A stretch of 64,000 nucleotides of DNA from positions 124,001-188,000 of the forward strand of contig JAXQJY010000027.1 in assembly GCA_037042185.1 (NCBI GenBank), given 5' to 3'. The notes below the pieces were generated by a model. That model ran no database searches. It saw only the letters and a program-made list of their open reading frames with translations, and was not told where the DNA came from. Below are positions 1 to 63,159 of this stretch, one piece after another (the first letter of the stretch is position 1; every line of letters starts with the position of its first letter). A program made the position numbers and the translations under genes. The DNA comes from Sordariomycetes sp. S80-01Y. Taxonomy: Eukaryota > Ascomycota > Sordariomycetes.

Positions 1-426
1 TAGCGACCGGTTACTAGGCTGGAGCCACCGAGAGAAGAGAAGAACACAGAACATGCTCGTGTTCCGAAGGCCCGGAGTGGATATAGGCCGAGCCTCCCGT
101 CATTAGGAATCTCGGCAACTTGCACCGCAGGTCAGTCATACTTCACGATATGAACCCGGATTGCTCGTACCATGGCTTGAGGACCTACCCCGCGGAGCCC
201 CCCCCAAACCCCACAAAGACCATCTCAGGATCGGAATCCGGGGAGCTTATCTTGAGAGACGATGTATCCAATAGTGCCATGGCTTTGATTGGCTCGGAAA
301 GGCATTGTGTCCGCTTCCTAAGCGTTCGGCTTCCTTATAATAATAGCTTGGTGAATCCTTCTGGCTTTTCTGTAGTCACACCTTGGGTTTCCTTCAGTAT
401 CCCAGCGAGTCGAAGCAATAGCCACG
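1..426. other. 5' flank of the transporter gene, no gene seen
   Basis: I see no convincing coding sequence. The open frames here have no family resemblance and run into the start of the carrier gene in another frame. The stretch probably holds the promoter and 5' leader of the carrier that starts at 427. No distinct operator was recognised. Confidence 0.5.
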
Positions 427-2083
427 ATGGGTGCAAAGCAGGAAGAAACGCAACAAAACTTTAGCGCTGCTGCAAGCGAGCTTGAGCACACAAACGACGC
501 TCAAGTTGTCTTCGAAGCTACCGATGAGGCTGAAGAGAGGCAGGTGGTGCGGAAGCTTGATCTTCATGTTCTACCTCTGATGGTCTTTGTCTATTTCTGC
601 ATGTGTAAGTCTACTCATTGCCGTGCCGAGGCAACCCCATAGCCGTCCAAGATGCAATGCGAGGCGAAGCAAACTGACCGTTTTAGACCTGGATAAACAG
701 TCCATCACATATGCTGCCATATTTGGCTTGCGCTCCGACCTGAATCTAGAAGGCGAAGAGTACAATTGGTGTGTTTCGATGTTCTACCTCGGTCAACTGT
801 TCTCCAACTGGCCCGCTGCTTACCTCCTCGGCCGACTGCCCTTAAAGAATTTCGTCGGCTGCACCATCGTCGTTTGGGGTGTTACCTGCGTATGCGTCGG
901 CTTGCCAAACAGCTTCTCCGGTCTGATGGCTGCTCGATTCTTCCTCGGTCTGACTGAGGGTGCCGTTTCACCCGCCTTTGTGATGTTGACCTCCGTCTGG
1001 TACAAGCGACGAGAGCATCCGGTTCGCGTTGCCGCTTGGGTGTCGATGAACGGCTTCGCGCAGATCATAAACGCCCTTCTCATGTTTGGGCTCGGGCGCG
1101 CAAATCTTGCTGTTGCCTCCTGGAGGGTACTCTTCTTCGTCATTGGAGGCCTGACCATCACCTCCGGAGTGTTGTTTTACTTCCTGCTACCCGGGGACAC
1201 CACAACGGCATGGTTCCTCACACCGCGCCAGAGAGAAATTGCCACGAGGCGGCTCGCGATAGACCGCGGCACGCGCGATCGGGCAGATTTCAACCGAAAG
1301 CAGTTCAACGAAACTTACAAGTCGCCCATCACCTGGCTCTACGTGTTAATGGCGCTTGGTATAACTCTGACGACCCCCATTATCAAGGCAAGCGGACATG
1401 GCCCCCTTTTTGACTCGATTTATTGTTAACAACGTTACTAGTTCTCCTCCATCGTTATCAACGGGTTTGGCTACGACAAATACACGACGATGCTTGTCGG
1501 TCTGCCCGGAGGCGCTGTCAACATCCTTACTACCTGGTTCGGCGCTTTTGTTCCTCGCCTTATCAAAGGAAAGTACAGCAGGGTTTGTACAGCTCTGTTC
1601 CTTTGCTGCATCCCGCTCCTCGGTGCGATACTGCTAGCGGTACTGCCCGCCTCTAGACCCTGGGGTATTGTGGTCTCAACTTGGATGGCGGGTGCCGTTA
1701 CATGCCTTCTCAGCAGCTGCTCGGCTCTCATGGCATCTAACGTGAAAGGTAACACAAAGAAATCTTCCACTACGACAATTTTCTTCGTGGCCTATTGCGT
1801 TGGATGCATCGTTTCACCTCAAGCCTGGACTGAGTCGAGCGCTCCACGATACTTCAAAGGTTGCATTCTGAGTATCACGTCTCTGATCTTCCTGATGATC
1901 GTTTTGATTGTGTACGCATTTCTTCTGGACCGAGAAAACCGTTTGAGGAACAAGAGAGTAGAGGAGGGCATGGTTGATTACGTGATGGATAACCAGGGAC
2001 GTGCTGGTGGTCTTCGGAGCGGCGTAGCCATCGATTCGGACCTGACTGATCGCCAGGACAAGGGTTTCCGATACACTCTCTGA
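427..2083 (+). CDS. MFS anion transporter, allantoate permease (Dal5/Tna1) group
   Basis: Predicted plasma-membrane carrier for an organic anion such as a carboxylate, allantoate or nicotinate; the substrate cannot be read from sequence. Exons are 427-604, 687-1387 and 1442-2083, giving 506 aa, a normal length for the group. The acidic cytosolic N-terminus leads into RKLDLHVLPLM, then LDKQSITYAAIFGL, the usual entry to helix 1. YNWCVSMFYLGQL and ARFFLGLTEGAVSPAF are typical Dal5 signatures. The C-terminus is hydrophilic, ending after LLDRENRLRNKR. The second intron has a GC donor: without it the frame hits a stop, and with it FSSIVINGFGYDKYTT joins on cleanly. The start at 427 puts the family's usual short charged tail before helix 1. 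It is the first of three same-strand genes with the E2 and E1 genes, 626 nt before E2. Family is sure, substrate unknown. Confidence 0.88.
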
Positions 2084-2709
2084 ACATCAATCATAATCAA
2101 ATCCTAACATCTGCCGGGTTGCTGAGGACTCTGCCCATTGCAAGCCTTGCTGGCGACCCTTAAGTACGGCCTTGGTGCATTAGTACACTTGATAGCGAAA
2201 TCATGCAGTAGACTTCATCCGGTATTTGAAGACTCCCTCTTGTTTTCTTCTTTCCTTCTTCTTTTTTCCTTTTACTGGTTTACGGTCGACTCGCTAGTGG
2301 GTAAGGATGCATTTTATTGCATCCTGATCATGTTCGTTCACCGTCTCCGGTGCTGGAAGGCCGAGACTTGATGCCTGAACTGTGCAGCGTCACAGTAGAA
2401 CTAGGAATGCTGCTTTGGATGCTTCTGAAATGCGCTGGAGATGAGGAATCAAAGTTCGTGTGAATCATCCATAAAAAGGCGGAATCGAACCACTGCAATG
2501 CCCCCTTTCGGAGAGTTTTTTGGGCCCACCCATCTCGGAAGACACATCCGAGAGGCCTTACATTCCATCGGCTCGCCTTTGCTGGTTTGTCGTCGCCCTT
2601 AATACAGGCTCGGAACAGTCTCTCTTCTGCCCAATGTTGCATCGCAAAGATAGCAAGTGGGTGAAAGGCACATCAGGTTGCTAGCTCTCTCCAAATCTCT
2701 GCGCGAAAG
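2084..2709. other. Spacer between carrier and E2 genes
   Basis: About 626 bp holding the 3' end of the carrier transcript and the promoter of the E2 gene. It includes a pyrimidine-rich tract near 2235-2285. No gene or clear operator was recognised. Confidence 0.5.
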
Positions 2710-4248
2710 ATGACCTCGATAGCACGACTTCGGCCGCTCCGGGCTGTCACTGAGGGCTCGCGACCCATTCTACCAGTCACACAAAGGCAACTTCACCATC
2801 GAAACATTCGAAGTCCAAAAACGCTATTCTATCATCCCTTCAGCAGCGGCCCGGCTCGCTATGCGGATCTGGTGGTCAAGGTTCCTCCGATGGCCGAGTC
2901 TATCAGTGAGGGCACAATAGCAACCATCCACAAGCAGATCGGAGATCACATTGAACCGGACGAAGAGCTCGCCAGTATTGAGACGGACAAGATCGACATA
3001 GCTGTCAACGCAGCCCAGGGTGGCGTTATTATTGAGCTGTTCGCCAAGGAAGGGGATGTGGTCACTGTCGGCCAGTCCATCGCTCGAATAGAAACCGGTT
3101 CTGCTGGCGCCTCTCAGTCGCCCAAATCACAATCACAAGATCAAGGCTCCAACAATACTACAAATGCCCCTAGGACTCCCCCAAGCGCAGCTTCTAGAGA
3201 AAGCAGAAGCGATTTAGACAAAGACCAGCCGATTGTAAAGCCGTCAGGCGACCAGACACCGGCAGCTTCAGGTAAATCTTCTACGTCGGAATCGACACAG
3301 AAGATACCCGAACACAATACAAGCCCACATCCAAAGCACGAGTCGGCCTTCCGAAGCGAACGCGTGGTAGGTCGTTCTTGATACCGAGCAACCCAGAGTT
3401 GCCATTAGACTGAACCAATAATTACTAACTGGTACGGTAGGAAAACCTGTCGCGCATGCGCAAGACGATTGCAACCCGCCTCAAACAGTCCCAAAACACT
3501 TGTGCTTCGTTGACCACGATTCAAGAGATTGATATGACGGCACTCATTCATTGGCGAGCCAAGTATAAGGAAGATGTGGCCAAGCGCCACGGTGTCAGAT
3601 TGGGCTACATGGGTGCCTTTGCTAAGGCCACAGCACGTGCTGCGAAACTAGTTCCTGAGATCAACGCCAGTATCGACACCGACCGAGAAAGCATCACTTT
3701 TCGAGACTATGTCGACATTAGCATCGCCGTGTCATCTCCCAAGGGCTTAGTTACGCCTGTTGTGAAAGACTGCGATAAGCTAAGCATTGTTGAGCTGGAG
3801 AAGCAGATTGCTATTGTGGCACAGAAGGTAAGACTCCTCTTCGCCAAGTCGTAATCTTCAAACTGTTGACTCCTTTGCCCAATGACCAGGCGCGAGACGC
3901 CAAATTGACCATGGACGACCTCACTGGAGGCAACTTTTCTATTAGCAACCCCGGTATTTTCAATTCTTTGTTTGGAACACCGGTAATAAACTACCCCCAA
4001 GCTGCGGTCTTCAACATGAACACCATAAAAGACCGTGTAGTAGCAATCAATGGAAAAGTAGAGATCCGACCGGTAAGCTTTTCCCTTTCTGCCTCAACGG
4101 CATTTGGCTAAGCTGACAATGATTTTGGCAGATGATGTATGTCACGGTCACATATGACCACCGATTGATTGACGGAAGAGAGGCTGTGTCATTTCTGAAT
4201 ATCGTCAAGAACTACATCGAAGACCCTGCTCGGATGCTTCTTGCGTAA
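2710..4248 (+). CDS. 2-oxoglutarate dehydrogenase-type E2 (dihydrolipoyl succinyltransferase paralogue)
   Basis: E2 core of a 2-oxo-acid dehydrogenase complex. It would move the acyl group from lipoyl-lysine to CoA in the mitochondrion. Exons are 2710-3366, 3441-3827, 3890-4072 and 4132-4248 (447 aa). A basic, Ser/Arg-rich N-terminus fits mitochondrial import. The lipoyl domain (about residues 55-130) carries [11 protein letters not shown] with the lipoylated Lys. A Ser/Pro/Gln-rich linker follows, then the catalytic domain from [17 protein letters not shown] to the active-site segment [10 protein letters not shown] (His about residue 418). As in eukaryotic DLST, no separate E1/E3-binding domain is visible. 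Several positions differ from the housekeeping sequence as I remember it, such as SNPGIFNS for SNGGVFGS. This and the accessory setting suggest a second copy. It lies 738 nt before an E1 gene on the same strand, so the two could form one complex using the cell's shared E3. Confidence 0.9.
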
Positions 4249-4986
4249 AGCCTAAGCTTGGTCAGGCCCATGAAAGGGCACCATTGGTAACTGGGCGCCG
4301 GCAGCTGTTATCGTAGCTTCTTTATAGCGCTGTTGGATCTGACATTGTGAATAAAGCCATACCCACTAATACCTTCATTCAAAACGTCAGAAATTGTGTC
4401 CTTGACAGTAAAGACCTGGTTCTTCGGTAGCAAAGTGCTTAATATGTAGCCACCTCAAGCGGAGCACCGGCACACATTGGATTCGTGGGACTGAGCATTG
4501 CTGGGACGCAATTCCAGTGTCCACTGTCTGCTTCTCCAACTTCAGCCGCTTTCACATGACCCGGGCATATCTGGCGCCAGCCCACAGAGCGGGGAATCAG
4601 AGGTCTCGGCTTCATTTTCCGTGGGTCATATCCATGTGCATTCACTACCCGAGAAACTTCCGGTCATTAAAGGGAGACTCGGATCCCGTGCGCGGATCGT
4701 ACTTTACTAGGATGAGTTTGCAGTAGGGGATATGCCATACCGGGAGCAGTGTGCCAGCCAAGATGGCCCCTCCGCTAGACTGCGTCGGCTGTAATATCCG
4801 TTCGGTTCTGATGTCCGTTCGGTTATGATTCTGGATCAATTCGCTGATATTGTCATTACTCTGTGGTTTTTGTTCCTATTGTACTGCAAAATTCATTGTT
4901 CCAAGGTACCGTGGCGCTGCCAGCCCATACCATTTAGTGCCCTGACTGATGAGCAGGCCAATTTGCAAATATCCGACGTTGTGAAG
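4249..4986. other. Spacer between E2 and E1 genes, promoter of E1
   Basis: Carries the E2 3' end and the E1 promoter, including a tandem CCG/CGG-type site at 4797-4824. An open frame runs into the E1 start from 4825 but has no targeting or family features, so the Met at 4987 was preferred. Confidence 0.5.
4797..4824. promoter_or_regulatory. Tandem TCCGTTCGGTT sites before the E1 gene
   Basis: TCCGTTCGGTT occurs at 4797-4807 and again at 4814-4824, a 17-bp period, about 165-190 nt before the E1 start codon. Each copy has CCG and CGG half-sites two bases apart, the kind of sequence bound by Zn2Cys6 regulators. Binding is inference. The core TTCGGTT also recurs in the array before the FAD monooxygenase gene. 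Confidence 0.45.
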
Positions 4987-7900
4987 ATGCATTCTGCGAG
5001 GAGAGCCCCGGTGGTGCGGGAAAGCTTGAGATCTCATTATAGCCGTACGCAAAATACCGGTTACCGCCGTCAGCTCTCTGTCACCCTGCCCTATGCTTCC
5101 GGGGGATCAAATATATCAGTATGGGGCCAAACGACGTTCGCATCTGCCGCCGACGCATTCAGTAGAAACGCTACCAGTGCCGTACAAGACCACCATGTTC
5201 AGGATATGGCTGTTCAGGCTCGCACTGCGGCTCAAGATGAGAGCACATCACTAGTAAGTTACCGCTTTCGCAAATCATTGGAGACGCTGGTACTGACTTT
5301 ATTCAGAATGTCGCCGAATCCTTTCTCCAGGGCGGCGCAGCCAATTACATTGACGAAATGTATATTTCATGGAAGCAAAATCCTGATTCAGTTCACGTCT
5401 CTTGGAGAACATATTTTCTAAACATGGAGGATCGATCACGGCCTGCATCTACGGCATTTCAGCCACCCCCAGGCCTGACATCGTCCCACGAGCCCCACGG
5501 CATGCCAGGGTTCGACTCCGGGCGGGAGGCAGAGATTCTGTTACATCTCAAAGTACAACAATTGGTACGAGCGTACCAGTCCCGGGGACACTACTACGCC
5601 AAGACTGATCCTTTGGAGCTTCGGCTGAACGCTGCCGACGTTCAACCCGGCCAGTCTGGCCTCGAGCGCCCTGTTGAGCTTGACCCATCTTACCACGGCT
5701 TTACTGAAAGGGACATGGATAGAAGTTTCAACCTTGGCCCTGGCATACTTCCTCGACATGCCACAAAGACCGGCGGGTCGATGAAACTGCGGGATATCAT
5801 AAAATCGTGTGAAAACACCTACTGCGGCAGCTATGGGGTGGAGTACTTGCATATTCCAGACCGCACCAAGTGCGATTGGCTCAGAGATCGACTCGAGATA
5901 CCTGAGCCCCTCAAATTCTCGCGGGAGGAGAAACGCCGAATCCTGGAAGGACTCATCTGGGCAACATCTTTCGAACGTTTTCTTGCCGCCAAATTTCCCA
6001 CCGAGAAACGCTTTGGTCTCGACGGCTCTGAAGGTCTCGTCCCTGGTGTCATGTCCCTAATTGACCATAGCGCCGATGCACACGGTATAGAAAATATCAC
6101 GATCGGCAGCTGTCATCGTGGGCGCCTGACAATGCTCGGAACCGTGTATGGGAAAACACCAGAAGCTATCTTTGCCGAATTCGCTGGCAGGGTCCGGTTC
6201 GACATGTTGCGAAATATGGCTGGTGATGTGAAGTACCACCTAGGACATGACGGCCAGCGAACTTCTCCAGGAGGGCGAACCGTCGACATTTCCGTTCTCG
6301 CCAACCCGTCACATCTCGAGGCAGTTGACCCCGTCGCAACGGGGAAAGCCTTTGCAGTTCAACGGTTGCACAGTGACCCAGAAAAGAACAGAAATATGTG
6401 TGTAACTCTTCACGGCGACGCCGCTGTTGCAGGTCAAGGCATCGTCTACGAGACGCTTGGCTTGTCGCGCTTGCCGGCTTACGACGTGGGCGGTACCGTG
6501 CGGCTTATTGTGAACAATCAAGTTGGTTTCACAACCGATGCACACTCTTCCAGATCGACAACATACGCGTCAGATATCGCCAAGGTAGTAGACGCACCCA
6601 TCTTTCATGTTAACGCCGATGACGTGGAGTCGGTGGTCTTCCTCTGCAAACTTGCTGCGGATTGGCGGGCCACCTTTCACAGTGACTGCGTCGTGGACAT
6701 TGTTTGCTATCGCAAATTTGGACACAACGAGTTTGACCAACCAAGTTTTACGCAGCCTCTAATGTACCAAAAGGTTTCTGCGCAGAAATCCTCGCAAGAC
6801 AAGTATGTGGAAAAGTTGGTGGCTGAGGGCTCTTTTACCCGCGAAGAGGTTTTAAGCTTGCGCGACAGCATATGGAGCCGACTCAACGAAATTTACGAGA
6901 GCAGCAAGGAACATGTTTCCCGGAGGGAGTATTTCACGCCAATATGGCAGAAGCTTAAGTCTCCAGAGACCTTGAAGGAAGAAACTCTGCCAGAAGTGAC
7001 CACGGCGGTTCGGGAATCTGTGCTCTATGAGGTGGGAGCCAAGGCACTAAGTGTCCCGAGTGGCTTCAACTTACATACCAATTTGGATCGCATCCTTACA
7101 GGCCGTAAGAACGCGCTGGAATCCGGAAGCGTGGATTGGTCGACTGCAGAAGCATTGGCTTTCGGAACTTTGTGTCTTGAGAAGCATTCTGTGCGTCTTA
7201 CGGGACAGGATGTTCAACGTGGGACCTTCTCACAACGTCACGCTGTCCTGCACGATCAAGAAACTGGCCAATCGTGGACACCTCTGAACAGTCTCGACCC
7301 AGGTCAGGCATATTTTGAGGTGCAAAACTCACCCCTTAGCGAATTTGGTGCTTTGGGCTTCGAGTACGGCGTCACCCTGGCAGACCCAAACTCGCTCGTC
7401 ATGTGGGAGGCGCAATTTGGGGACTTTGCGAATAACACGCAGGTCATCATCGACAACTTCATAGCCAGTGGAGAGACTAAATGGACAGACCGGTCTGGAC
7501 TTATCCTCTCTCTGCCTCACGGCTATGACGGACAGGGTGCCGAGCACTCCTCTGCTCGCATCGAAAGGTTTTTGATGCTCTGCTCGGAGGAGGGGAGGAC
7601 ATACCCATCGGCACCCGAGCGGGCACACCAAGATGCCAATATGGGGGTTGTTTACATGACGACCCCCGCCAATTACTTCCACGTGCTGCGCCGACAGATG
7701 CGGAGGGAATATCGGAAGCGTATGTGAATTCCCTTGAACATTCGACTCTGACACCCCTTTGTTTCTGTTGAAAACTTTTTAGCCTGATCTATTACCTTCC
7801 ACTTCGTCACTCTCGGAATCTATGCTGACGTTCAAATAGCTCTCGTGATCTTCTTCTCAAAGTCTCTGCTTCGCCACCCACTGACCCGGTCTAACATGGC

Positions 7901-8357
7901 CGCCTTCACCGAACCATCGACATTCCAGCCCGTCATAACCGACCCTGAACATGGCCTCTCCATTGATGATCTCGATTCAATAGACAGGGTAGTTGTGTGC
8001 TCCGGCCAAGTCTATGCTGCAATCCAGAAACACCGAGAAGCTGCGGGAATCCGAAATGTGGCTATTACGAGGATTGAGGAACTTCATCCGTTTCCCTGGA
8101 CTGAGGTGCAGTCCAACCTTGATCTATACAAGAACGCCAAAACGATTGTTTGGGCGCAAGAAGAACATTACAACGGCGGAGCTTGGCACTACATGCGTGA
8201 TCGTTTGGACACAGTCCTACGTGAAACAAGCCATGGTGGGCGCCGCCTTCTCTTTGCGGGCCGAGGCCCAAGCGCCAGTTCGGCGGCAGGGCTCAAAGAT
8301 ATCCATTGCGCTGAGGAGGAACAACTGTTGCATGGTGTTTTCCACTTTCAGGGGTAA
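4987..8357 (+). CDS. 2-oxoglutarate dehydrogenase-type E1 (thiamine diphosphate), diverged paralogue
   Basis: E1 of a 2-oxo-acid dehydrogenase complex: ThDP-dependent decarboxylation and transfer to lipoyl-E2, in mitochondria. Exons are 4987-5253, 5307-7719 and 7840-8357 (1065 aa, near the usual E1o length). After a basic, Ser/Arg-rich presequence comes NYIDEMYISWKQNPDSVHVSW, the N-terminal segment typical of E1o and lacking in DHTKD1-type E1. Then follow LVRAYQSRGHYYAKTDPL, GSCHRGRLTML (about residue 356), KYHLGHDGQR, VLANPSHLEAVDPV, the ThDP motif GDAAVAGQG to VNNQVGFTTD (about 459-490), FGHNEFDQPSFTQPLMY, WEAQFGDFANN and LPHGYDGQGAEHSSAR. The C-terminal domain has KSLLRHP and EEHYNGGAWHYM. 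The housekeeping enzyme, from memory, reads G-M-P-H-R-G-R-L-N where this one has G-S-C-H-R-G-R-L-T, and HNETDQ where this has HNEFDQ. It is therefore probably a second copy with altered substrate handling or inhibitor sensitivity. Directly downstream of the E2 gene. Confidence 0.92.
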
Positions 8358-10623
8358 ATACCAAACCGCATCCCATAACAAGCGTCAATCTCTCGCCATT
8401 GGTCTTCACTGTACCTTGTAGTTCCACTGCTCGTTGATTGGGTGTCAATGTAACCACTTCTTATTGTGTTTATCACTCTTCAGAAGTGAAAATGAAGAAA
8501 TAGTGATAGGAGATGCTTCTATCTCTTGCCGCTCCACCTTTCCGTATCAAAGATCGTCAGAAATATGGCCTTCTCGGTAAAGGATACGACTTCTTGCGAT
8601 TTATAGCGCGGTAGACTGACTATTTGCTCTACGAAATGTTGATCAGCAAGCGAATAGTCAGCGTAGCAGGACGCGGGATTCATTGATTTTAGCGGGACTT
8701 CATCGCGAGAGAAAAGGTTCATTTGTTCAGATGCCACTACGAAGGAGATTCTATGGCTTGGCCTGGCCTCAACTGGTGACGTCGACCTAGTTCTGTGTGG
8801 CCTTCCACTGGCATCTCCCTGGATTTCAGGACCCTGTGCCTCTAGATATCACGATGCTCTCAGAGCGCCCATATAATGCAGCTTAGCCCAAGGTTCAGAT
8901 ACGTCGCGTCCAACATCGCTAGTCTTCTGACCGTGTGGTTCTTTCGCATAGTCAGTCTATCCGCCATACCTTTTAAGGCCACGTCACTGACCACCAACCT
9001 TGAGAGCCTACAATAGCGATCAATTGTCACTGTATGACCTTCTATGGCCTTTTGACCGATCTTCAACTCTCTTCGCTTTCGTGACTCTGGAACCATTGCG
9101 TGGCTGGGTTCATGAAGCGTCGACCTACAGTCAGCACCATTGACAGCTGGGCTTTGAGGTTTTTCTCTTGCCATCCGTTTCGCCTGTAATTGGCACAGTC
9201 TCTTCCTCTTCAATCTTGTTGTCCTAGGTGGTTTATGGTTAGCACAGCAAGCCTGAAAGCCGCGGTCTAGTTTGACCTTAACAGTAGTCTACGGTTTGCT
9301 TGCCGATAAGTACTAGAATTGACTGTCCTTTCTCGCCCCAGCTTGATAAATCCCAAAGACAACTACGGGATGTGCGGTACTTACTTAGTCCTTGGGAGTA
9401 TTGACACGATGTAGACCGCTGCATCTGCTCATGTTACCATTGTAACCCGAAGTACATCTTGGAATTTAAGCGGGAAATACAAAGACAGCAACTATCTTCT
9501 ACGCAAGGCTTTTGCGTTCCCTCAATCGGAATGCTTCTTCCACATGTCGCTCGTCAAATACATTGAGGGAATTCTTCACATTAGCTTTTTGTATGCCCTT
9601 GAAATCCTTGCAGACTCGGACCTTGACCTAAATAAAGCAATGAGCTAGAATTAAATTCTTCATTTAAGTTCTTCATTTAAGATCTTAGTGTCTATAACAT
9701 AATTTGGCCCTGGCCGAGTCGTCAACGTTTTGTTTAACCGGGACCAATATCCCAGACCTCGAAACATGTTGTCTCCGCAGCAACCATGTTGATTAATTGG
9801 GGTCTTTGCTCCTCTTCCCATGGGTCTTGGCTTCTGATATAGTCAAGAAGTACGGTGACAAGTATCGCCGCCAAAAGTCGGTATGATTCCCTGCACTGTC
9901 CGCTTCACGTTTAACTGTTTGAGGACCGGCCGAATTCAGACGATGTCTCAGCGTTGGCCGAGGGACCACATTTACCCTGGATTCTATTGTCAGTTCTTTG
10001 GAACCAGCAGTATTTACTAAGTTGACTAGTCAGCCGGCGTTGATGGTGAATGTGGACAGAATTGTGTCCGGGTTGTGTATCCGAGACTGCTGTCCGAAGG
10101 CTCACCAGTAAGACCCACAGCATCGGAAATGGATCCCGGGGCGCTCGTTCCCGCTTGGCGGAGTAAGCAGTGGAGACGCGGGATGTAAGTCGGCTTTTTG
10201 ATCTATCTGGCATCGAAGAAACACCAGCATGCTGTGGCAGTGAAACCGGTGGTCAGCCATGATGCTGTAGTACGTGCTGTAACTCTTGATGATTGCCAGC
10301 TTATATCTGTTTCAACTCTTTGATATCAGAAAGCGGTAAGACTGTAACCTACTATGTCACGAAATCTTGATAAGACGCTCATGGCGGATAGTCTTTGTCC
10401 TCCCGGTATGCGCTGTGAGCGCGGATACAACAGTCCAGTACCAGGAAAACTGTGGTAAGGCGACTGTGGCTTGGGGTGCTTCGACCATGGCATGCCGATT
10501 GGTGGCGGCGTTCTGCCCCACGTGGAGTCCGGCAAAAGCTTCCGACGACAGGTTGCCGGATAGGTTTTCCAATCCTCATCCGTCTACCTGCTTAAACTAC
10601 CTATCTTTCTGGCACAGTAGAAT
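8358..10623. other. Gene-poor spacer, 2.27 kb
   Basis: I see no gene. Short open frames on the minus strand (8519-8737, 8860-9213, 9911-10213) and small overlapping frames at 10.3-10.6 kb have no recognisable family and no supporting exon structure. The last few hundred bases should hold the promoter of the regulator at 10624. It could contain decayed sequence I cannot identify. Confidence 0.5.
9656..9681. repeat. 13-bp direct duplication in an AT-rich patch
   Basis: TTCTTCATTTAAG is present twice back to back (9656-9668 and 9669-9681). It is probably a simple slippage duplication. No target-site or element structure surrounds it. Confidence 0.7.
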
Positions 10624-13324
10624 ATGAACATGCTTCCAGCTGAAAGCGGCGCTGTGCGCACGGGCTCCGGATGTGAACCGAGCCGGCCCAGACGCAACGA
10701 CGGCCCAGGTCCGCGCACGTCGACAGCGTGTCGAGTTTGCCGGGACAAAAAAGTCAAATGCTCTGGCACGCGACCATGCGTCTTTTGCGTCAAACGTGGT
10801 TTGGAATGCGTCTTTTCTCAGGTTACTAAGCGGCGCCTTTACTCGGTCACGTACGTAGTTCGCGGCCACGCGATTCACTGTGCCGTGTGGTTTTATTGAC
10901 ACGAGTAGCCACATACGCGAGCTGGAGGATAAAGTGGCACAATACGAGAACCAAGGCCGTAGGTAACAGCATCCTGTCCTAACGGAACTTTGATTGCTGA
11001 CTTGGACGTCCGGAGTGGTTCGAATAGGCTCTGAGCGACCAGCTTCCGCACACTACCAGTCGTCCCCAACAACCCTCACAGCCTTTTTATCTTTCAAAGG
11101 CCATGCTGGAGACGCACATGAGGACCGCGGGGGCCGGCTGCCACAGGAGCCGACCTCTGTACCTGAGGCTGCACATGATGCTGGTTCTCGACCTGGAACC
11201 GCTACTCCGCAGGTGGATCCTGCGGCAGGAGGTGAGAAATAAGAGATTCCCTCCGATTGTCAAAACGTACTGAATGTTCGCCTCGCCACTGTTCAGCCAT
11301 TGCACCGGCCGCGTCTCTCTCTTCTAGCGAAAAGTTCAGCTCTGAGCTCCGGACACTGTTGAGCGAGCGATCACATCCAGACTCCGGCCCGACATCTGCG
11401 CCGCCTGCCGACGGTACGCCAGTGTCATGTTCCCAGAGACGATCAAGATTCGAGAAGATAAGGTGCTGGCCCACGGAAGAAGACGCGCACAGTATGCTGA
11501 ACATTGTGGTTCTGAATGTGGGCGTATCACAGCATCTGTTTGACGTCAGGGTTTTCTTGGACAATTTATCGCATCTCTTCGACAATGACATAGATGACGG
11601 CGGAGTGCCCGAACTGTGGTACGCTGAGTGTCTCTTGGTTTTCGCGATCGGAAGGCTTCTTCAGGCGCGATGGGACGACGAGTCCAAACTACCGGGCGAT
11701 GACTTCTTCCACGATGCTCTGAGGCGAATGCCGGATCTCGGGGGCCTTCGGGAGCAGGGGCTTCTGGGGATCGAGCTCGCGGGACTATCTGCTCTCTACC
11801 TCCAGATAGTGGATCGAAAAGAGGATGCTTATCTATACGTTAGAAAGAAATTGCCTTCGCAAGATCGTAACCTAGGCCAGGTGGACTGACATTGCGCAGG
11901 CAAGCACAGCCCTCCGCTTAGCAATAAGCCTTGGCCTTCACAAATCTCGACCACTTCCAAGCTACAAACGGTCGGAAGCCGTGCACCGAAATCGGCTTTG
12001 GTGGACAATTTATATGCAGGAACGGCAAGTCATCCTTCAAACTTCCAGTTGCCGACACCTAACCGGCTACCAGAAGACTCGCCGCGGCTGTTGGTTTGCC
12101 AATGGCCATTTCCGATGCAGCCATCACTGCTCCTCTACCATCAGACCAGATTGGCTACCCGTCAGCTGCCTCCATTGCAGTCAATGTAAAGCTAGCTCAG
12201 GTGACTGGGCGTATCACAGCGAGTTAGTCAACACATATCTCTACGTGTCCATGCTTGACACTGATCAGTCCGCAAGCTATCTATTCACAAAATAGCGAGT
12301 CGGAGGCGACCTTCATTAAAGAAGTACAAAGCATCTTACACTCGCTCCGCAACATTGAAAGTGGAATGCACGCAGAAATTGCCGGGGGGCCACACCCTGT
12401 TGAGCTCCTCCTAATCGACGCACCGCTGTCGAGCTCGCAACTGTCGTCGGCAAGGACGACCGCATCCCTAAGTTTAACAATCTATCAGGTAGCTCTCTTC
12501 ACAGGCGAAACGGAATGACTCTACTAATGACACGCAGACTATCATCTATGCGGTGCGACCCATCCTGCTATACATGGCTCGGGGTAGTTTCCGTCGTGGG
12601 AGTGATCTATACACATCCATGAGTCCCACGCTTCGTCTTCTTGCAGACACTTGCGTTGAAGCCGCTCGTAAGAGCCTGGTTATTCTCCATGCTCTACGCA
12701 GACGGGATCTTATCGGTGAGTGTCTTCTCAATCCGTTTGCACTCGATCATGTAACTTCTGTACCGGGCTAACTCTGTTACTGCTCAAGCTAAGCATGCTT
12801 TTCTTGACCTGGACTGCATCTTTTCTGCCGGATTCATTTTCGTGCTCGCGGTCGCAGTCAACTCCGGTCACTCTCAGGCCTACGAGGGCATAGACAGCGC
12901 GCGAAGCATCCTAATGTTTCTCGCCAATCTAGGGAATCGAGCCGCGGCAAAACGCCTCAACGAGATCGACCAGATGTGTGCTAGCCTCGCCCTACAGACA
13001 GAGACACCTGATGTAAATGTTGGCCAATCCCACACGCTTATGCAGCCTTTCTCCTTCAATCCGATAGCCCAACGGACGGCTGGTGACGCATCCGCGTCTG
13101 CTACGGTACCCGAAACACCCAACCACGTAGTTTCTTACCACAGCCCAACTGGTCAGACTCTGTGCGAGACCTCAGACACTACAACGGCCGGCATACCAGA
13201 CTTGGCCGATATTGTCCTCGAAGGCGAAGATGATTTGTACTGGATGTACCACAATCCTTCGCTCGCTTTGACTGGCGTGGAACTGATAGATTGGGAGACT
13301 CTGGAAAATCAGAGGGGTGCTTAG
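10624..13324 (+). CDS. Zn2Cys6 transcription factor, 740 aa, nine exons
   Basis: Nuclear DNA-binding regulator. Exons are 10624-10850, 10909-10958, 11028-11231, 11297-11838, 11900-12024, 12074-12222, 12277-12488, 12538-12715 and 12789-13324; all phases agree. The zinc cluster runs from ACRVCRDKKVKC to the sixth Cys in CVKRGLEC (about residues 36-63, spacing C-x2-C-x6-C-x5-C-x2-C-x6-C). A short coiled linker HIRELEDKVAQYE follows. The fungal middle domain includes WPTEEDAHSMLN, YASTALRLAISLGLH and RLWWTIYMQERRLAAAVGLP. The intron at 12025-12073 uses a GC donor, and reading it this way restores the conserved R-R-L-A-A-A segment. The acidic C-terminal tail could activate transcription. It lies between the E1 gene and the FAD monooxygenase gene and could control either; the target is unknown. 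Confidence 0.85.
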
Positions 13325-38864: not shown

Positions 38865-40018
38865 TTAGGGTTCGTTGGCGTAGTGAACAGGGCGGGCCGG
38901 GTACTTGTTCACACGTAGGCTCAGCTGATCGGGGCGGCAGTAGTGTCCGACGACGTCAAGACATTGCTTGGCAAGTCGCTTCAGAGACAGGTCAACTTCG
39001 GCAACGAGTATACCCTCCTCGCTGGGATCCAGACGCTCCACAAGCTCGTCACCCCATGGGCTGTAAATCATGCTGAAACCCCCACCGTGCTCGGGGCAGT
39101 TGGCATACGCAAACTCGTCGACTCGGCATCGTTTGAGACTCTCCTTGGGAAGAACCTGGGTGGCAACAGCGACGAAGCAGGCACCTTCAAGGGCGACGAT
39201 CTGAGAGAAGCGAAGGCACATTTCGTCGGTGATATTGGCCGGCCATGTGGGATCAGGCTTCCCGTCCTTAATAGGCGTTGGCCAGATAGGAGGCCAGCTT
39301 GCAACGTGCACGTCAACGTTTTGCTCGTACTCGTAGTAGCGAAGGAGAGTTTGAGTATGCTCCCAGCAGTTGAGGCCTGCAACCCGGACGTCCGGGAACT
39401 TGGTGCTGGGCACCACGGTCTGGAGAGACTCGCCCTGGCCGTCACCCCAGTAGGCTCGCTCAACGTGAGTAGGCTTGATCTTACGGCGATGGTGAACAAT
39501 GACTCCGTTCTCGTCGATGAAGGACTGCGAAAGGTTGCCAACTGTCAGACTTATATGTTGTGATAAGAAGCTGTTGAAGAACAGGGGCAATTCTATACCT
39601 GAGCGATGTAGAGGGTGCTCTTGTGCCGCTCGCTGTAGCCTAGAACAACGAAAACACCAGCCTCTTTGACGGCGGCGCATATGCGCTTCATATCGGGCGA
39701 GTCCATCTCCATGGAGTTGCGGAAGTACTCGTCCATGAACCTCCCGTTGTCAATAGGATTCTGGGCCCAGATGCTCCTTACCCAGCCAGTGTTAGCTAAA
39801 CAGGTTTGCAAAAGCATACGTGAGGCAGAAAGAAAAGCCATGGTATCTTACCATGGATATCCGGGAATGAAAACCTCGGGGAATCCAACAACCTGAGCTC
39901 CCTTTGCTGCGGCTTGCTCGATAAGACTGATGGATTTGTTGACACCTCCCTCGAGGTCGTTCCACGCAGGCTCAGCTTGGATCGCCGCGACCTTGAGCTT
40001 CTGACCGGTGGTGGACAT
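38865..40018 (-). CDS. Nitrilase (arylacetonitrilase-like)
   Basis: Hydrolyses a nitrile to the carboxylic acid and ammonia. Exons in order are 40018-39852, 39776-39599 and 39524-38865 (334 aa, typical). The catalytic triad is visible: Glu48 in [12 protein letters not shown], Lys130 in [12 protein letters not shown], and the nucleophile Cys168 in VAGLNCWEH. Other conserved parts are VGNKS-like [27 protein letters not shown] and [10 protein letters not shown]. The C-terminal [20 protein letters not shown] and the final His/Arg-rich tail fit fungal arylacetonitrilases, which form helical oligomers. The first intron ends in an AAG acceptor and the second at CAG before SFIDENG. It is transcribed away from the aldoxime dehydratase gene from a shared 837-bp promoter, which strongly suggests that the nitrile made by that enzyme is its substrate. 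Intact. Confidence 0.92.
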
Positions 40019-40855
40019 GATGGTGTTCTTGGAATAAATTTTGCGTTGTAAGAGCGACTTTAAGGGATGCTAGGGGAGGTGAGATTTTAAGGTCGTTTGC
40101 TTTGGATGCTCGTTGAACTGATGATGGTCTGAGTGTCCGTCGACGGCCTTTTGAACACTTCGAGGAACGACTTCCGAATCTCCATACATCGTCGATAACT
40201 ATGGTCGCACCAATCAATACCACTCTAATCAACCCGGCTCAGCAGTTACCCGCCATGCCAAGAGTTGGTGACCCCGATCTTGATTGTTGGCTGAGCATCA
40301 TCCTACCTTGTCAATCTTCCTGCCTAGTCGCCCCAACCAAACCTGTCATTATCCCCTATGAACTCGGTCGGCTGGGCAATACCCTATCGGGTGACGTATA
40401 ATCCGCATGTGTGGTTGTCTTATTTTGGCACAGAACCCATCGATGGCGGTCCATTTTCGCTTGAGCCGTATGTGGTCTAGTGGACTTTCCCCGGCTCAGC
40501 ATTAGCCAATCTCCCCTGCTATCAACCACGGCAAGGCAATATCCTATCTCTTATCGGCGTTGATCTAGTCTGCGGGGTATCGTGGAGAGGTTCGCCTTCG
40601 TGATCGGTGGGGCATTTGCTAACGAATGGCAGTCTCAGTAAAAGCAATCTTTCGATGACTTAGAGAGCTTTTGACCACAAGCCGCGCTTCAAACTCTGGC
40701 AGAAGTACAATGTATAAGAAGGAATGTTTTCCCCTTTAGTTTACGATCATACAGCAAACCGCGATCTTGCAGTACACTGTGCTGCTTGGCACTTTCCATA
40801 ACTCTCATAACATAACCCGGCTTCCTATTATTCTGCCTCGCTGCTGGTCTTGACC
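40019..40855. promoter_or_regulatory. Bidirectional promoter of the nitrilase and aldoxime dehydratase genes
   Basis: 837 bp between the two start codons. It contains GCAATACCCTATCG (40376-40389) and GCAATATCCTATCT (40536-40549); the latter is identical to 34449-34462 before the acetate-type carrier. A CGGCTCAGCA element recurs near 40228 and 40491. TCGGTCGG near 40365 is a further CGG-type candidate site. Co-regulation of the two genes is inferred from the head-to-head layout. Confidence 0.6.
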
Positions 40856-41950
40856 ATGGCTCAAATTGAATCATCCATTGCTCCTCACCTTCGGACGGAC
40901 AGAACCGTCCCGGGGAACACACCCGAAGGCTTCACCCCCCCGTTTGAGATTTACGCATCTCGCTACCCTCCCTCGATGAAAGAGTTTGCTTTTGCAATCA
41001 TCGGCGTTCAATACTCCTCGCCAGAATTGAACGACGGAGCCGCTATGGAGAAAATCATCTCCTTCACCAGCTCAACAGCGGTTCCCGTTCAACTCCGACC
41101 CACGTTAGAAGAGGTTGCCGCAGTAACAGATAATCGAGGCTACTACAATATTTCGATGCTGGCATACTGGCCCGATAGGAAGACGTGGGACCAATGGTCT
41201 GAAGAGACTGGATTCAGAGAATGGTGGTCAGCCTTAGACCCAGGCACGCAGCGGAACGGCTGGTTTCTAGAGGTCTTCTTTCCGACCATGGATCGCTACG
41301 AGACAATCCTCACAGACACCGTTATGCGCGAAGGCGCGTCTTTCATGAGGGACGGTGTTAGCGGTCCCGTCCTTGAACATGGTTATTGGGGAAGCATGCG
41401 GGACCGGTTCCCAATTGCGCAAAATGACGAGCTCATTGGCGAAAAGGCCTTTTTACAACCTGGCGGGCCAAAGCGCTTAGAGACACTCACATCCAGGATC
41501 CGCGTGCCTGGAAAGAGGAATCTCGCGGTAATTCGCTCTGGCCAGGACTGGAAGGAGACACTCCCTAAAGAGCGAGACTTATACCTCAACATGATGCGCC
41601 CCGCTTTGCAAAAGGGAATGGACTTTCTACGCGATCATGGAGATGAAGTTGGCTGTTATAGTAACCGCTTCATGGACATTGTTGGCCCCAAGGGCGAAAC
41701 TGGGAAAGATCGCAGCTTTGGCCTTGGATACTTTGATGATCTCGCCTCTCTGGAGGCGTGGAGCAAGTCGCACCCTACCCATGTCGAGATTTTTGCGGTA
41801 TTCATGAAGTATGTGAAGGAAATGGAGAACAACCTTAGCCTGCACCTTTACCACGAGGTATCCGTCCTCGAGTCAGGTCAGCAACTTTTCGAATATGTCT
41901 CTTGCCATGCCAATACCGGCATGCTTTCATCAATACGCGATGACTGCTAG
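40856..41950 (+). CDS. oxd: Aldoxime dehydratase (haem), phenylacetaldoxime dehydratase-like
   Basis: Dehydrates an aldoxime to a nitrile on a haem iron. Single exon, 364 aa, starting at the Met of MAQIESSIAPHL. The family opening is present: GNTPEGFTPPFEIYASRYP, then FAIIGVQYSS. YWPDRKTWDQW and NGWFLEVFFPTMDRYETI follow. YWGSMRDR carries the conserved Arg (182), AVIRSGQDW the conserved Ser (228), HPTH the proximal haem His (309), and LHLYHE the distal catalytic His (330). These correspond, from memory, to R178, S219, H299 and H320 of the Rhodococcus enzyme. All key residues are kept, so it should be active. The divergent nitrilase would turn the product nitrile into an acid. Haem enzymes of this type act in the cytosol, and no targeting signal is seen. 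Confidence 0.92.
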   Translation: MAQIESSIAPHLRTDRTVPGNTPEGFTPPFEIYASRYPPSMKEFAFAIIGVQYSSPELNDGAAMEKIISFTSSTAVPVQLRPTLEEVAAVTDNRGYYNISMLAYWPDRKTWDQWSEETGFREWWSALDPGTQRNGWFLEVFFPTMDRYETILTDTVMREGASFMRDGVSGPVLEHGYWGSMRDRFPIAQNDELIGEKAFLQPGGPKRLETLTSRIRVPGKRNLAVIRSGQDWKETLPKERDLYLNMMRPALQKGMDFLRDHGDEVGCYSNRFMDIVGPKGETGKDRSFGLGYFDDLASLEAWSKSHPTHVEIFAVFMKYVKEMENNLSLHLYHEVSVLESGQQLFEYVSCHANTGMLSSIRDDC

Positions 41951-57898: not shown

Positions 57899-59261
57899 TC
57901 AGTCTGTCTCCACAACAACCTTGATCACTATCTTATCATTTTCGTCACTAGTCCGGGCGGCGAGACTAAATGCTTCTGGAACTTTCTCGAGGCCTCGAAG
58001 TGAATGGGTGAGGAGGTGCTTCAAATTTGGCACAGCCTCACCCGATCCTGCCTTTTGCATCATTGATATAGCTTCAGGATAACAATTTGCATAGCGCCAC
58101 ACACCGATAAGATCGACCTCGCGGAGAGCCGCAGCCGAGAGCGGCAGTGTCTGGACAGGTGTGCCCATCCCTACCAGCAAAATCTTGCCCCCGCTTTGGG
58201 TTGCCTTGATGACGGAAGAGTATTAGTATATCTGCTGTGAGAAGCACGGGCGGGACCTACGTGTATCGCGATCCTGACGCAAGACTCAACTCCTGTGCAT
58301 TCGAAAGTGCGGGAGAATCGTTCCTGGAAATTGAGTGCCACCAGCTTAGCCGCGTCATCTTTGGCAGTTTCTAAGCCTTCATCGATGTTATCTGCTCGGC
58401 GTGGCTGCAGCAGGACTACCTCGTCAGTAAATTTGTGCTTCTTGGCAAACTCCAGGCGGCTCCCTGCAATATCGGCCATCACAATCTTGCCGTAGTTCGC
58501 GTTCCGAGCGGCAGCAGCGCAGAGCAGGCCCACGGCCCCTGTGCCGATGATGAGGCAGCTAGATTCCGCTCTCGCCTCAGCTTTTCGAACGGAGTGTATG
58601 GCGACGGCCAGGGGCTCCAACAGCGCTCCTTCAGCGTAGGAAAGCGAGTCTGGAAGCCTTAAAGAGCTCAGGGATCAGCACCGCGTCTCGATACTCTATT
58701 GCCAAGTCAATGGGATGAGGACTGAGCGTACTTACTTATGAACCCATTTTGCTGGATGGTTGAATCGTTCTTGCAAGGTGCCTTGAAAGTGAGGAAACGC
58801 AGTGGCACTACTTCGGAAGCGCATCTTCTCGCAAATATTGTAGTTCCCGTCACGGCACAGGGTGCAATGATCGCAGGGAACGCCGACCTCAACTGCAACC
58901 CGGTCTCCCACAGCCAATCCATGAGTGGCGGCGACGCCTTCTCCCAGAGCCATGATCTGGCCGGCACACTCGTGGCCCTGGGATAGGGGCTCTCGAATCT
59001 GGATATCGCCGTTGCGATAATGGGTGTAGTAATGAACGTCGGAACCACATAGTGTAGTGGCCTTCATAGCAATCTGTACATCTCCATTTCCCGGTAATTC
59101 AATATTTTTGGAAATCTGAAACAGATGTATTGTCAGTGAGATCCAGCACAGCAGACTTGGTCAGGAGAGCAAGCGGGAGATCCTACCAGTCGTAGGTCTT
59201 TGGGTCCATAGAGCACCTGCGCCTTGACTACTTGAGTGTCAGAGGTGCCTGAGGATGTCAT
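57899..59261 (-). CDS. Zinc-dependent polyol dehydrogenase (sorbitol/xylitol dehydrogenase-like)
   Basis: Medium-chain dehydrogenase, likely interconverting a sugar alcohol and a ketose with NAD. Exons in order are 59261-59187, 59115-58736, 58657-58261 and 58204-57899 (385 aa). Catalytic zinc ligands lie in TLCGSDVHYYTHYRNGD and LSQGHECAGQIMALGEGV. The structural zinc is bound by the four Cys of PCDHCTLCRDGNYNIC. The cofactor site is LIIGTGAVGLLCAAAA, with Asp at the end of the second strand (VMADIAGSRLEF), which favours NAD over NADP. LLEPLAVAIHSVRKA is the usual interdomain segment. YTHYRNGD and a Glu in the zinc region fit xylitol/L-arabinitol dehydrogenases, but exact substrate specificity cannot be assigned. 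Part of the putative pentose/polyol cluster. Confidence 0.88.
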
Positions 59262-60309
59262 TTTTGCTGGTTTGAATACGCGAAAACACTTTCACAGTAA
59301 AAAAAGGTTAACCGACTCTTTTCCCCTCCGTCGCAGTGGCGTCTGTTGTCACGATCAGGGTCGCTGAATCTGCGTTACCCGAAGCCTATAATCCGAGCGA
59401 AGATGCTAGACAGATATTGAGAAGAATGTTCTCTGTAGTGAGTGGTACTAGAGCTACTTGAAAGCTTCAAGCTGCAGATGGTAGCGGAAACCATATCCCG
59501 ATGCTGAAATGTCACCAACGAACAGATGACCCAATCTTTAGGTAAGGAGCTGTGGAAAACGGGCAGCGCTGACTAAAACAGACCACATAAAACCCGGGTT
59601 GAGTTAAACCTGAATATGGAAGCTCCGGCGCCGGGCCTGGGGCTTGGGACGTGGCACGCGGCACCTGGAGAGGTCTAGAAAGCAGGCTCCCGTTCCATCA
59701 AGATTAGCTACCGTCACATTGACTGCGCGAATTCTGCTATGACAATAATGGGGATGTTGACCAAGATACAGTGTAGGCGATCGATTCGGGTGTCGCGGGA
59801 ATAGAAAATCCAGTCTTTTGTTCACTGTAAAGATCTGGTGCACGTTTTTATCAAGGTGCGTAATGCACTATATATGAGCTTGAGATACCCAGGAGTCGAA
59901 TGCGTCGATCTCTTGCTTGTGCACCGGTCTGTTATCACAGCTCGATGGACATGTAAATCTTACCCTTCATGCATGCGAGCGTCGAGGATGTAGAGATGCT
60001 TGGAAAAGGTACACGGGACCATGGGTCCGGTCTGTTACGCGTGTCTGGCCATCGTAGTGGACGTTGAGTCTTCGGACCAGCGCGGTGGCACCGGCCAGAG
60101 CGAAGAGTCGTCCGGGGCTTGGGGTCGACTGTAGCAACGCAAATCTTCTGTCTCACTAAATTACGGTTGGGGTTGACACTCTCTAGGGCTCATCTCCATC
60201 GCAGACACAGATATCATATATTCAACCTCGTTAACTTAGCCCTCTCGTATGCAGTCCAGTTGCTTTAGCCGCAAGCTTCTATCATAAGCTCCAAAGCATA
60301 AGAAATCGC
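59262..60309. other. Spacer between polyol dehydrogenase promoter and transketolase 3' end
   Basis: 1.05 kb; both flanking genes are on the minus strand. No gene supported; the frames at 59604-59843 and 59935-60156 have no family resemblance. It should contain the dehydrogenase promoter. Confidence 0.5.
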
Positions 60310-62678
60310 CTAAAGTTGCCTCCATCCGGACTGTCTGGCTGATTTCCCATTGAGCCATTCCAAATATTTCTTAACTTTCTTCTCGATACCTTTTGCATCA
60401 AGTCCAAAGCGCTCGTAGTTGCTCTCGTTGGATGCAGAATATCCGTAGGTTGTCATCCCAATACTGGCTGTCACGTATCTGGACCACACAGTAGCGACGT
60501 ATTCCTCCGCACTGACTATAGGCCTTCCATCCCGTGGGAAGATGGTCGCTTTATAATCCTCATCTTGCATCTCAAAGAGGTCCAAGCATGGAGCGCTGAC
60601 AACTCTTGTTGGTATCGCCTGATCCGAGAGACGCTTGGCGGCTGCAACAGCATAGTGCAAGTTGGATCCAGCTCCCGCGAGTGTGAGCCTGTAGTTAGGT
60701 GGCTCGAGTACTGCGTATGCTCCACGCGCAACCTTGCTACGATCTGTGCTGGGCACGTCGCCGACGGGGTCGCGGGCGATGGAGAGCATGCACGGGGATT
60801 TGGTGGCTTCAAGAGCATACATCCAGGCGCCGATTAGCTCTTCAGCATCGCAAGGGCGTATGTAGCGAAGATTCGGCATGGCCCGGTAGAGAGAGTCAAC
60901 CTCTACAGGTTGGTGAGTCGGTCCATTTTGACCCTCCTCTTTTACTTATTTAGCTTGATGCGTTCTCTTGGTAGATTTCCACTTACGGAAAGAGTCGTGA
61001 GTCGCAATGTGAATGACCTGAAGATCACTGAGAGCTCCCATACGGACTCCAGGGGCGGCCTACAGCTTGCGGTCAACAAAGGCCCAATAGCGACAACGAG
61101 TCCAAAGGCGCTTACATAGAGATAGAACATTAGAAATGTTGCAGTGATCGGCAAAAATGTCCCTGGATGGTACGCTGCCATGCCGTTTGCAACAGACGCC
61201 ATGGCATGTTCTCGGATTCCATTGCGCAAGTAGCGCCCCTTGTACCCGGCTGCGGGCAAGAAGACATCCGACTCAGAGTAGGATATCTTGTTCGAATTCA
61301 CAAGGTCCGCACCTCCTCCGCAGAGAGACGGCACAGTCTCCCAAAGTTTCTCCAAAATAATGCCGTTGGCCTCACGAGTGGCCTTACCAGCGAACCGACT
61401 GCTATCCATGGTTGAGAGAAGAGCCAATCCGGCTTCTTGGCTAGGAGCCATCCGCCTCGATAGTTCCCTTGATAGCTCCGGGTATTTTGAAGTGTAAAGG
61501 TCCAACATAAAGTTCCACCGACGCTGGAGATCTATCCCGTGGGTACGCTGCTCGCGGAAGAAGTCAAGTACACCACTTGGCACTTGGTGTGTAGAATCCG
61601 GACTCATGTTGGCCTTCATTTTGGATCTTCTGAGGCTTTCTGAATCAATGCTTCCATGATGGGCTTTGTATGTCCCAGCGACAGCTGTGTCGATACCGAT
61701 GACTGTTCGAATATTTATGAAGACCGGTTTACTCGATGATCTTTTGGCCAAACGGAGGGCGGCCTCGATGCCCTCGACATCGTACCTACCATCCTCGACA
61801 TCAATGACCTCCCAACCCTGAGACCGCATTTTTGAGTTGATGTCTTCGGAGTTAATCCAGCTTAAGGGCCCGTCGCAGGTAACGGCATTGTTGTCGTAAA
61901 GAAGAACCAAGTTAGACAGTTTCAACTGTCCAGCAAGCGAGATTGCTAATCCAAATGTAAGCAAACTTAAGCATATCACGGGCAGATTGGCAAAGCCATA
62001 CCTTCAAGGGCAACGCCCTCCATCAGGCAGCCGTCTCCCGTCATGCACCAAATCGTGGACTGAATAATTTCGAACGCTGGTCTGTTGAAGTTCGCCGCGA
62101 GATTCTTGGAGGCTATTGCGAGCCCCACCGCATTCGCGATACCTTGTCCTAAAGGGCCTGTGGTCACTTCCACGCCTGGGATCTGGATCTCTGGATGCGC
62201 ATGGCAGATTGTATGAAATCCGTTCTCTTTAGCAGATCCGTAGCCTTTAAGCTCGTTCATAGTCCAGACATCGTAGCCCACTAGGTGGTTCATGATGTAT
62301 AAGAAGATGCTCGCATGCCCTGATAGATCGGTCAATTAGTACATGATGGCAAGGGTGTTTTTTGAACCTCCTACCGTTTGACAGAACGAATCGGTCCCTA
62401 TCGAACCATTCAGGATCGGCAGGGTTGTAACGCATGGCATACTTCCAGAGCGCCACGCCAATTGCAGCCATCCCCAACGCCGAGCCTCCATGGCCACCGC
62501 CAAACTGAGTACAGAGATCAAGAGCAAGGTTCCGAACAGCCAGAACGGCTTGATCATCGCGCTTTCTCTTCAAATTAGGATCATCCTCCATGTCGTACTG
62601 TGGATCGAGCCTATTTTTGGGAGGAGTGTCAACGGACACTCCAGCTTCGTTGCTCTTGTCATTCGGTGTAGAAGCCAT
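60310..62678 (-). CDS. Transketolase / dihydroxyacetone synthase
   Basis: ThDP enzyme moving two-carbon units between ketoses and aldehydes. Exons in order are 62678-62375, 62319-62002, 61945-61116, 61059-60987 and 60938-60310 (717 aa; dihydroxyacetone synthases are about 700-710 and ordinary transketolases about 680). Motifs in order are GGGHGGSALGMAAIGVALW, FVLSNGHASIFLYIM, GPLGQGIANAVGLAIA, TGDGCLMEGVALE (ThDP), KAHHGS, YLRNGIREHAMASVANG, HIATHDSFQEGQNGPTHQPV and RYIRPCDAEELIGAW. The N-terminal extension of about 45 residues and HDSF-Q-E-G-Q-N-G resemble the dihydroxyacetone-synthase branch. The protein ends WRQL; RQL is only distantly like a peroxisomal targeting tripeptide, so location is open. 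With the polyol dehydrogenase and SDR it would process xylulose-type ketoses, normally after phosphorylation by a kinase not seen here. Confidence 0.9.
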
Positions 62679-63159
62679 GATCGCTTGAATACCGTAACAT
62701 CAGTGCAGTGTCGAGACACGCAACTTGACAGGTTGTTTGTGGCATTGCCGCTATAGTATTTGCCCGTGCTTTTCCTCAACACGATCGGAATCCGAGAGCC
62801 GCTGGTCGGGGTCGGGAGTCACGGAATATAGATTCCGCATACTTCACGAAACCCACAATGCCGTGCCCGCCGGGCATCTGCTAGTCTTCCTGTGATTGGA
62901 CCATGAGTCGATTCACTTCTCAAATCCGGCATTTCCCAGAGGGCTTGCATGTCTCGGAAACAGTCGTCTGGATTCTATTCAAATCAGGACCCCTTAACTT
63001 AGATCTGGCCCAGTGTCAGCTCATACGTCCGGCACCTGTGCGACGTACTATGCAACATTCGCCTTTCTTGTTTCACGCATCTCTGCTATCCCAACCCTCT
63101 AGGCCTCCCCACCATTTGCTACTCTCATCAGTCCTTGACTAAACCCGGCCACCGCTGCC
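62679..63159. other. Divergent promoter of transketolase and SDR genes
   Basis: 481 bp between the starts of the transketolase (-) and the SDR (+). Head-to-head layout suggests shared regulation. No clear operator was identified. Confidence 0.45.

Follow-up and report, generated by a model that had tools for sequence, protein, structure and literature searches.

A second, anciently diverged pair of 2-oxoglutarate dehydrogenase-type E1 and E2 genes in a possible accessory metabolic cluster of Sordariomycetes sp. S80-01Y

The mitochondrial 2-oxoglutarate dehydrogenase (OGDH) complex of fungi (KGD1, KGD2, LPD1 and Kgd4) shares with the locus described here the E1 and E2 families, the domain layout, the lipoyl domain, intron positions and the lack of a detected E3-binding domain in E2. 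The locus differs from that complex in that its E1 and E2 genes are adjacent, are about 57% identical to the housekeeping genes in their catalytic parts, have a lower GC3 and probably have a regulator of their own; moreover, they are linked to an MFS gene and to the relic of a mitochondrial carrier gene, and no E3 gene was found alongside. DHTKD1, the 2-oxoadipate dehydrogenase, is also a paralogous E1 that works with the E2 of the OGDH complex (E2o), whereas the E1 of this locus has none of the four DHTKD1-type specificity residues. Fungal biosynthetic clusters may contain duplicated-target self-resistance genes (IMPDH, DHAD, GAPDH), which resemble the present genes in being divergent second housekeeping copies in an accessory locus; here, however, no core biosynthetic gene was found nearby and more than one mitochondrial function is duplicated. 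To our knowledge, there is no fungal metabolic cluster in which an entire central step of mitochondrial metabolism is duplicated along with its transport, and none containing an OGDH E1/E2 pair was among the open-access papers listed. The itaconate clusters (cadA, mttA, mfsA; adi1, tad1, mtt1, itp1) join an enzyme, a mitochondrial carrier and a plasma-membrane MFS protein around a TCA-derived acid (PMC9367143, excerpt). The same make-up is seen here, apart from a broken carrier gene and an enzyme that belongs to the 2-oxo acid dehydrogenase complexes. Mitochondrial carriers have also been described as serving fungal catabolic pathways in Candida (PMC5144973, excerpt).

The window (the whole stretch of 64,000 nucleotides that was analysed) corresponds to positions 124001-188000 of contig C10, in a genome of 30.9 Mb in 16 contigs. 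Its start lies 124 kb from a contig end. A subtelomeric position found no support; no TTAGGG array of the kind seen at ends of contigs C3, C9 and C13 was found on C10. The E2 gene (2710-4248, + strand) consists of four exons (2710-3366, 3441-3827, 3890-4072 and 4132-4248) that splice into a single open frame without stops and encode a dihydrolipoyllysine succinyltransferase-type protein of 447 amino acids. The E1 gene (4987-8357, + strand) has three exons (4987-5253, 5307-7719 and 7840-8357), also without stops after splicing, and encodes a 2-oxoglutarate dehydrogenase-type protein of 1065 amino acids. The introns used in both genes have GT-AG ends. Intact E2 and E1 genes in tandem on one strand had been described in an earlier note on this DNA, and both the arrangement and its coordinates are borne out.

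Both proteins were assigned by profile searches. E2 scored 444 bits against the NCBIfam equivalog model TIGR01347 (sucB; cut-off 378.65) and missed a second sucB equivalog model, NF004309 (PRK05704), with 419.5 against 449 bits. Pfam recognized the lipoyl domain (PF00364) and the acyltransferase domain (PF00198) and reported no E3-binding domain at E 0.01; eukaryotic E2o has been described without such a domain (PMC9974300, excerpt). The large exon of E1 alone reached 913 bits with TIGR00239 (cut-off 770), its last exon matched the same model, and the Pfam domains PF16078, PF00676, PF02779 and PF16870 were found in this protein. At such scores, chance is not an issue for the E1 and E2 matches. 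A pattern scan revealed no viral relatives of E1. Mitochondrial presequences are Arg-rich with few acidic residues; both N-termini, read by eye, have this composition, and E1 and E2 are probably mitochondrial.

The pair is not the housekeeping one, because KGD1 and KGD2 were located on contigs other than C10. A genome-wide family search for the C-terminal domain of the OGDH E1 gave only two places (2/2 candidates scored), the window and C2:160756, where the gene reads as KGD1 and is 52-54% identical to the window E1 by tblastn. KGD2 was located at C7:7414-8853, less than 6 kb from two predicted histone genes (read from the predicted proteins). The possibility that the window genes are merely linked housekeeping copies was thereby ruled out. 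The earlier note had proposed a second E1/E2 pair, to be abandoned if the genome contained no other E1o/E2o copies and these fell in the vertical clade of the species; other copies were found, and the proposal is not refuted.

Over the span of PDB 8i0k, the window E1 is 56.8% identical to the KGD1 of the same genome (408/718), 45.4% to 8i0k and 47% (median) to bacterial E1 proteins (16 of 80). For E2, the comparison of catalytic domains gave 57.5% identity between the window protein and its own KGD2 and 58.8% between the window protein and the KGD2 of Chaetomium (7q5q), these two KGD2 proteins being 90.8% identical to each other. In trees of 19 rows, the window E1 grouped with its own KGD1 (100/99; 16 of the 80 bacteria) and the window E2 with the two fungal KGD2 proteins (94/95, just under the program's star; 14 of the 67 bacteria). 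The window rows were flagged in both trees as long branches whose place is unsure, and hence the time of the duplication is fixed no closer than "old or fast". One intron of E1 falls in exactly the same alignment column as in the housekeeping gene; in E2 one does so and another lies within one column. The grouping with fungal proteins and the common introns indicate that the pair derives from fungal genes and not from bacteria. A bacterial origin was rejected, with tree and introns fungal and the best bacterial segment (80 loci kept of 591 relatives) only 45% identical, against 57% for the own KGD1. The window E1 and E2 are old fungal paralogues of KGD1 and KGD2, with 57% identity in their catalytic parts.

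One question is which substrate the paralogues would use. A less likely rival reading is that their specificity has shifted, so that E1 accepts a 2-oxo diacid similar but not identical to 2-oxoglutarate and E2 makes a non-succinyl acyl-CoA, in a pathway that degrades or builds some unknown compound. On the E1 side this would fit a Ser next to the first substrate histidine (E. coli position 258), where the own KGD1, 8i0k and 80/80 bacteria have Met, and a Thr at E. coli position 265, where the others have Asn or Ser. However, the histidines at E. coli positions 260 and 298 (numbering counted from the alignment), which we take to be the substrate histidines, are both kept. At the four positions where 2-oxoadipate dehydrogenase (OADH) differs from OGDH (PMC7340257, excerpt), the window E1 has F, Y, F and E, the OGDH state in all four, as do the own KGD1, 8i0k and 16/16 aligned bacteria (every fifth of the 80). 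None of the DHTKD1/OADH residues Tyr190, Ser263, Tyr370 and Asp707 is present, and a DHTKD1-type 2-oxoadipate dehydrogenase was ruled out at these positions. The substrate is thus likely to be 2-oxoglutarate or a closely related compound. The motif GDAAFAAQG of the own housekeeping KGD1 was seen to contain Ala where all 80 bacterial E1 proteins have Gly (GDAAFAGQG); the window E1 keeps the Gly.

In E2, the catalytic Asp, His, Arg and Asp of DHRxxDG are kept by alignment (YDHRLIDG), corresponding to Asp374, His375, Arg376 and Asp379 of E. coli E2o (PMC5986005, excerpt). Also retained, two residues ahead of the catalytic His, is the Tyr that in OdhA helps to hold the succinyl carboxylate (PMC10415282, excerpt); this speaks against a shift. 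Before the catalytic motif, however, the window E2 reads SNPGIFNS...FNMN, where its own KGD2, that of Chaetomium, 9njt and 6h05 read SNGG..GS...LGxH; the conserved stretch SNGGVxGS...LGxH is defined by the alignments of this study and not by a published criterion. PG thus replaces GG and N replaces the His of LGxHAIK, and at each of the changed positions 66/67 bacteria have the usual residue (G, G and H). This His is position 348 of the E. coli protein, counted back from His375, and may have a role in acyl choice. The literature search returned no paper on E2o His348, and the residue is absent from the available text of PMC8146983 and PMC5986005. These changes in a near-invariant stretch sit ill with plain succinyl transfer, and a shifted acyl group in E2 appears possible. 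By a scan test, the substitutions are not significantly clustered in E1 (p 0.64) or in E2 (p 0.15), which counts against the shift, and clustering was dropped as proof of a new specificity.

The gene preceding the pair, which the earlier note had read as a Dal5-type carrier, is an MFS transporter gene of the anion:cation symporter type (427-2083, + strand; exons 427-604, 687-1342 and 1442-2083). PF07690 was above its cut-off in 581-1426 and below it in 1442-2080 (25.7 against 33.4 bits). The best NCBIfam model for the large exon was TIGR00893 (family 2.A.1.14, which we take to be the family of Dal5), whose score of 149 bits is far under the full-length cut-off of 395 because only one exon was given.

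A new element is a mitochondrial carrier gene that once belonged to the module and is now broken. It lies at C10:122780-123757 (122780-123672 in the narrower delimitation; - strand), 0.2-1.2 kb to the left of the window and divergent from the MFS gene. PF00153 was matched in two pieces, and the reading frame is interrupted by three in-frame stops and by one frameshift or more. The relic is 44% and 52% identical, over two aligned parts, to an intact paralogue at C10:2215843, presumably the fungal oxoglutarate/malate carrier. A 107-amino acid piece of it gave four matches in the genome including itself, the next best being the same paralogue (49%) and the other two reaching 28-32%. The carrier, E2 and E1 are thus all paralogues that differ to about the same degree from the corresponding intact or housekeeping gene. 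With the carrier broken, the module is incomplete as it stands and may be decaying.

A further reading is that the locus is the remnant of a set of genes, formerly useful or acquired by transfer, that is losing its function, the carrier being already dead and E1 and E2 due to follow. In addition to the broken carrier, this would agree with the change of 20 out of 87 otherwise conserved E2 positions and with the GC3 of the window pair, which is below that of the housekeeping copies (0.56 against 0.78, and 0.54 against 0.69). However, no frameshift or stop occurs over the 1065 codons of E1 and the 447 codons of E2, their introns are of the GT-AG type and both proteins retain those catalytic residues that were checked. 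Decay of the whole set is considered unlikely.

The comparison with the housekeeping genes by codon position gave identities of 36% (E1) and 33% (E2) at third positions and of 74% and 68% at second positions; dS is without value because it is saturated. Where a residue is common to 95% or more of the bacteria and to the own KGD protein, the window genes kept it at 230/257 positions in E1 and 67/87 in E2 (80 bacterial E1 and 67 bacterial E2 proteins, taken from the same 80 loci). The codon-position pattern and the conserved positions kept point to long purifying selection. We regard this as the mark of long past selection, stronger on E1 than on E2; it does not imply selection at present.

The regulation of these genes was approached through their promoters. 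CGG-N9-CCG is a form typical of Zn2Cys6 sites, and a motif scan located one putative site between the broken carrier and MFS genes (113-127), one upstream of E2 (2536-2550, within the palindrome TCTCGG-N9-CCGAGA) and three upstream of E1, namely 4607-4621 and the tandem sites 4786-4800 and 4803-4817 (4786-4817 together), which are not mutually independent. Three other sites (starting at 10069, 10124 and 10530, within 10069-10544) precede a Zn2Cys6 transcription factor gene (10624-13324, + strand), recognized by PF00172 in 10624-10848 and by a three-frame reading; its model is provisional in structure, end and integrity. When the three promoters were put through 3000 dinucleotide shuffles, all of them shared a spacing between 0 and 20 in 51 cases, and 2 of these also reached five sites. 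This comparison is to be read with the fact that the motif was found by looking at the sequence and that, of the five promoter sites, those at 4786 and 4803 are in tandem. In 2000 mononucleotide shuffles, 3.2% had a common spacing from 6 to 20 in all three promoters, and for the E1 and E2 promoters alone some common spacing appeared in 25%. The density was five sites in 2.0 kb of promoters against six in 43.8 kb of other sequence free of predicted genes (within a 114-kb stretch), and the sites to the right of the cluster are scattered. The longer form TCTCGG-N9-CCG matched 446 times in the genome (1 per 69 kb); its reversed control matched 441 times. Locally it occurs at four sites in window positions 110-10086 and at one more at 17322, but this density is no independent test because the form was derived from these very sites. 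The E1/E2 pair is probably co-regulated with the carrier and MFS genes, and the case for a co-regulated cluster is moderate.

Taken together, these data lead us to favour, with about even confidence, an accessory metabolic cluster centred on a second mitochondrial OGDH complex of ancient divergence, with an MFS transporter, a former carrier and probably its own switch. According to this model, the MFS protein would move a C5-type dicarboxylate or a 2-oxo acid across the plasma membrane, and a dedicated oxoglutarate/malate-type carrier, whose gene is broken in this strain, would have moved the substrate into mitochondria. With thiamine diphosphate as cofactor, E1 would decarboxylate 2-oxoglutarate or a closely related 2-oxo diacid, E2 would transfer the acyl group to CoA, and the single shared E3 (LPD1, via Kgd4) would reoxidise the lipoyl arm. 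Genome family searches found no second E3 or Kgd4 in the cluster; Kgd4 gave one match in the genome, and a single LPD1 was recognized by reading three E3-family genes. The neighbouring Zn2Cys6 factor would probably switch the genes together via the CGG-N9-CCG sites. A bolder version, in which the cluster comprises a regulator of its own as well as a transporter, a mitochondrial carrier and a dedicated 2-oxo acid dehydrogenase complex, and the changed E2 acyl site makes a non-succinyl acyl-CoA for a novel pathway, seems doubtful at present. The broken carrier is a warning that this strain may be losing the function of the cluster. If active, the cluster would offer either a further entry to the TCA cycle under its own control or a new way of forming an acyl-CoA, as well as natural E1 and E2 changes for the study of substrate and partner choice in these complexes.

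The earlier note had also considered the pair as a resistant stand-in, that is, an inhibitor-insensitive OGDH protecting the producer of an OGDH inhibitor. A divergent second copy of a housekeeping target next to an MFS gene, with substitutions near the E1 active site, would fit such self-resistance. Ketosynthase and condensation domains were the core types searched for genome-wide. Among the ketosynthase matches listed (29/29 candidates scored; the list is a lower bound), the nearest on C10 is at 1217616, about 1.1 Mb away, and none of the condensation-domain matches listed, at least 79 (78/126 candidates scored), is on C10. Self-resistance becomes less likely because no PKS or NRPS core domain was among the matches listed within 1 Mb on the contig. 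It is further at odds with the duplication of more than one mitochondrial 2-oxoglutarate function instead of a single target, and no fungal case was found in the open-access literature, where related matches concern Streptomyces and Amycolatopsis. This explanation is not supported and we consider it very unlikely; taken as a whole, the interpretation given in the earlier note is partly supported, and the accessory cluster round a second OGDH complex is the reading we retain.

The genes to the right of the cluster encode an FAD monooxygenase, a hydrolase, a P450, an amidohydrolase, a nitrilase and an aldoxime dehydratase, and look catabolic. At window positions 38865-41950, a nitrilase-type gene (- strand) and a haem aldoxime dehydratase gene (+ strand) are adjacent and divergent and might form a pair leading from aldoxime to nitrile to acid. 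A transketolase-like gene lies between alcohol dehydrogenase-like and short-chain dehydrogenase genes at 57899-63991 and, with the sugar transporter at 50816, may belong to a sugar cluster. To the left of the window, C10:87897-91418 contains a protein-arginine deiminase gene (PF03068), here in a fungus, and at C10:105374-112479 two Tautomerase_3 genes are interleaved with two genes of the metallo-beta-lactamase fold, resembling a duplicated catabolic unit. Elsewhere in the genome, stop-free NRPS open frames of 21803, 18091, 15043, 14448 and 10670 codons were observed on contigs C6, C15, C14, C11 and C9, respectively.
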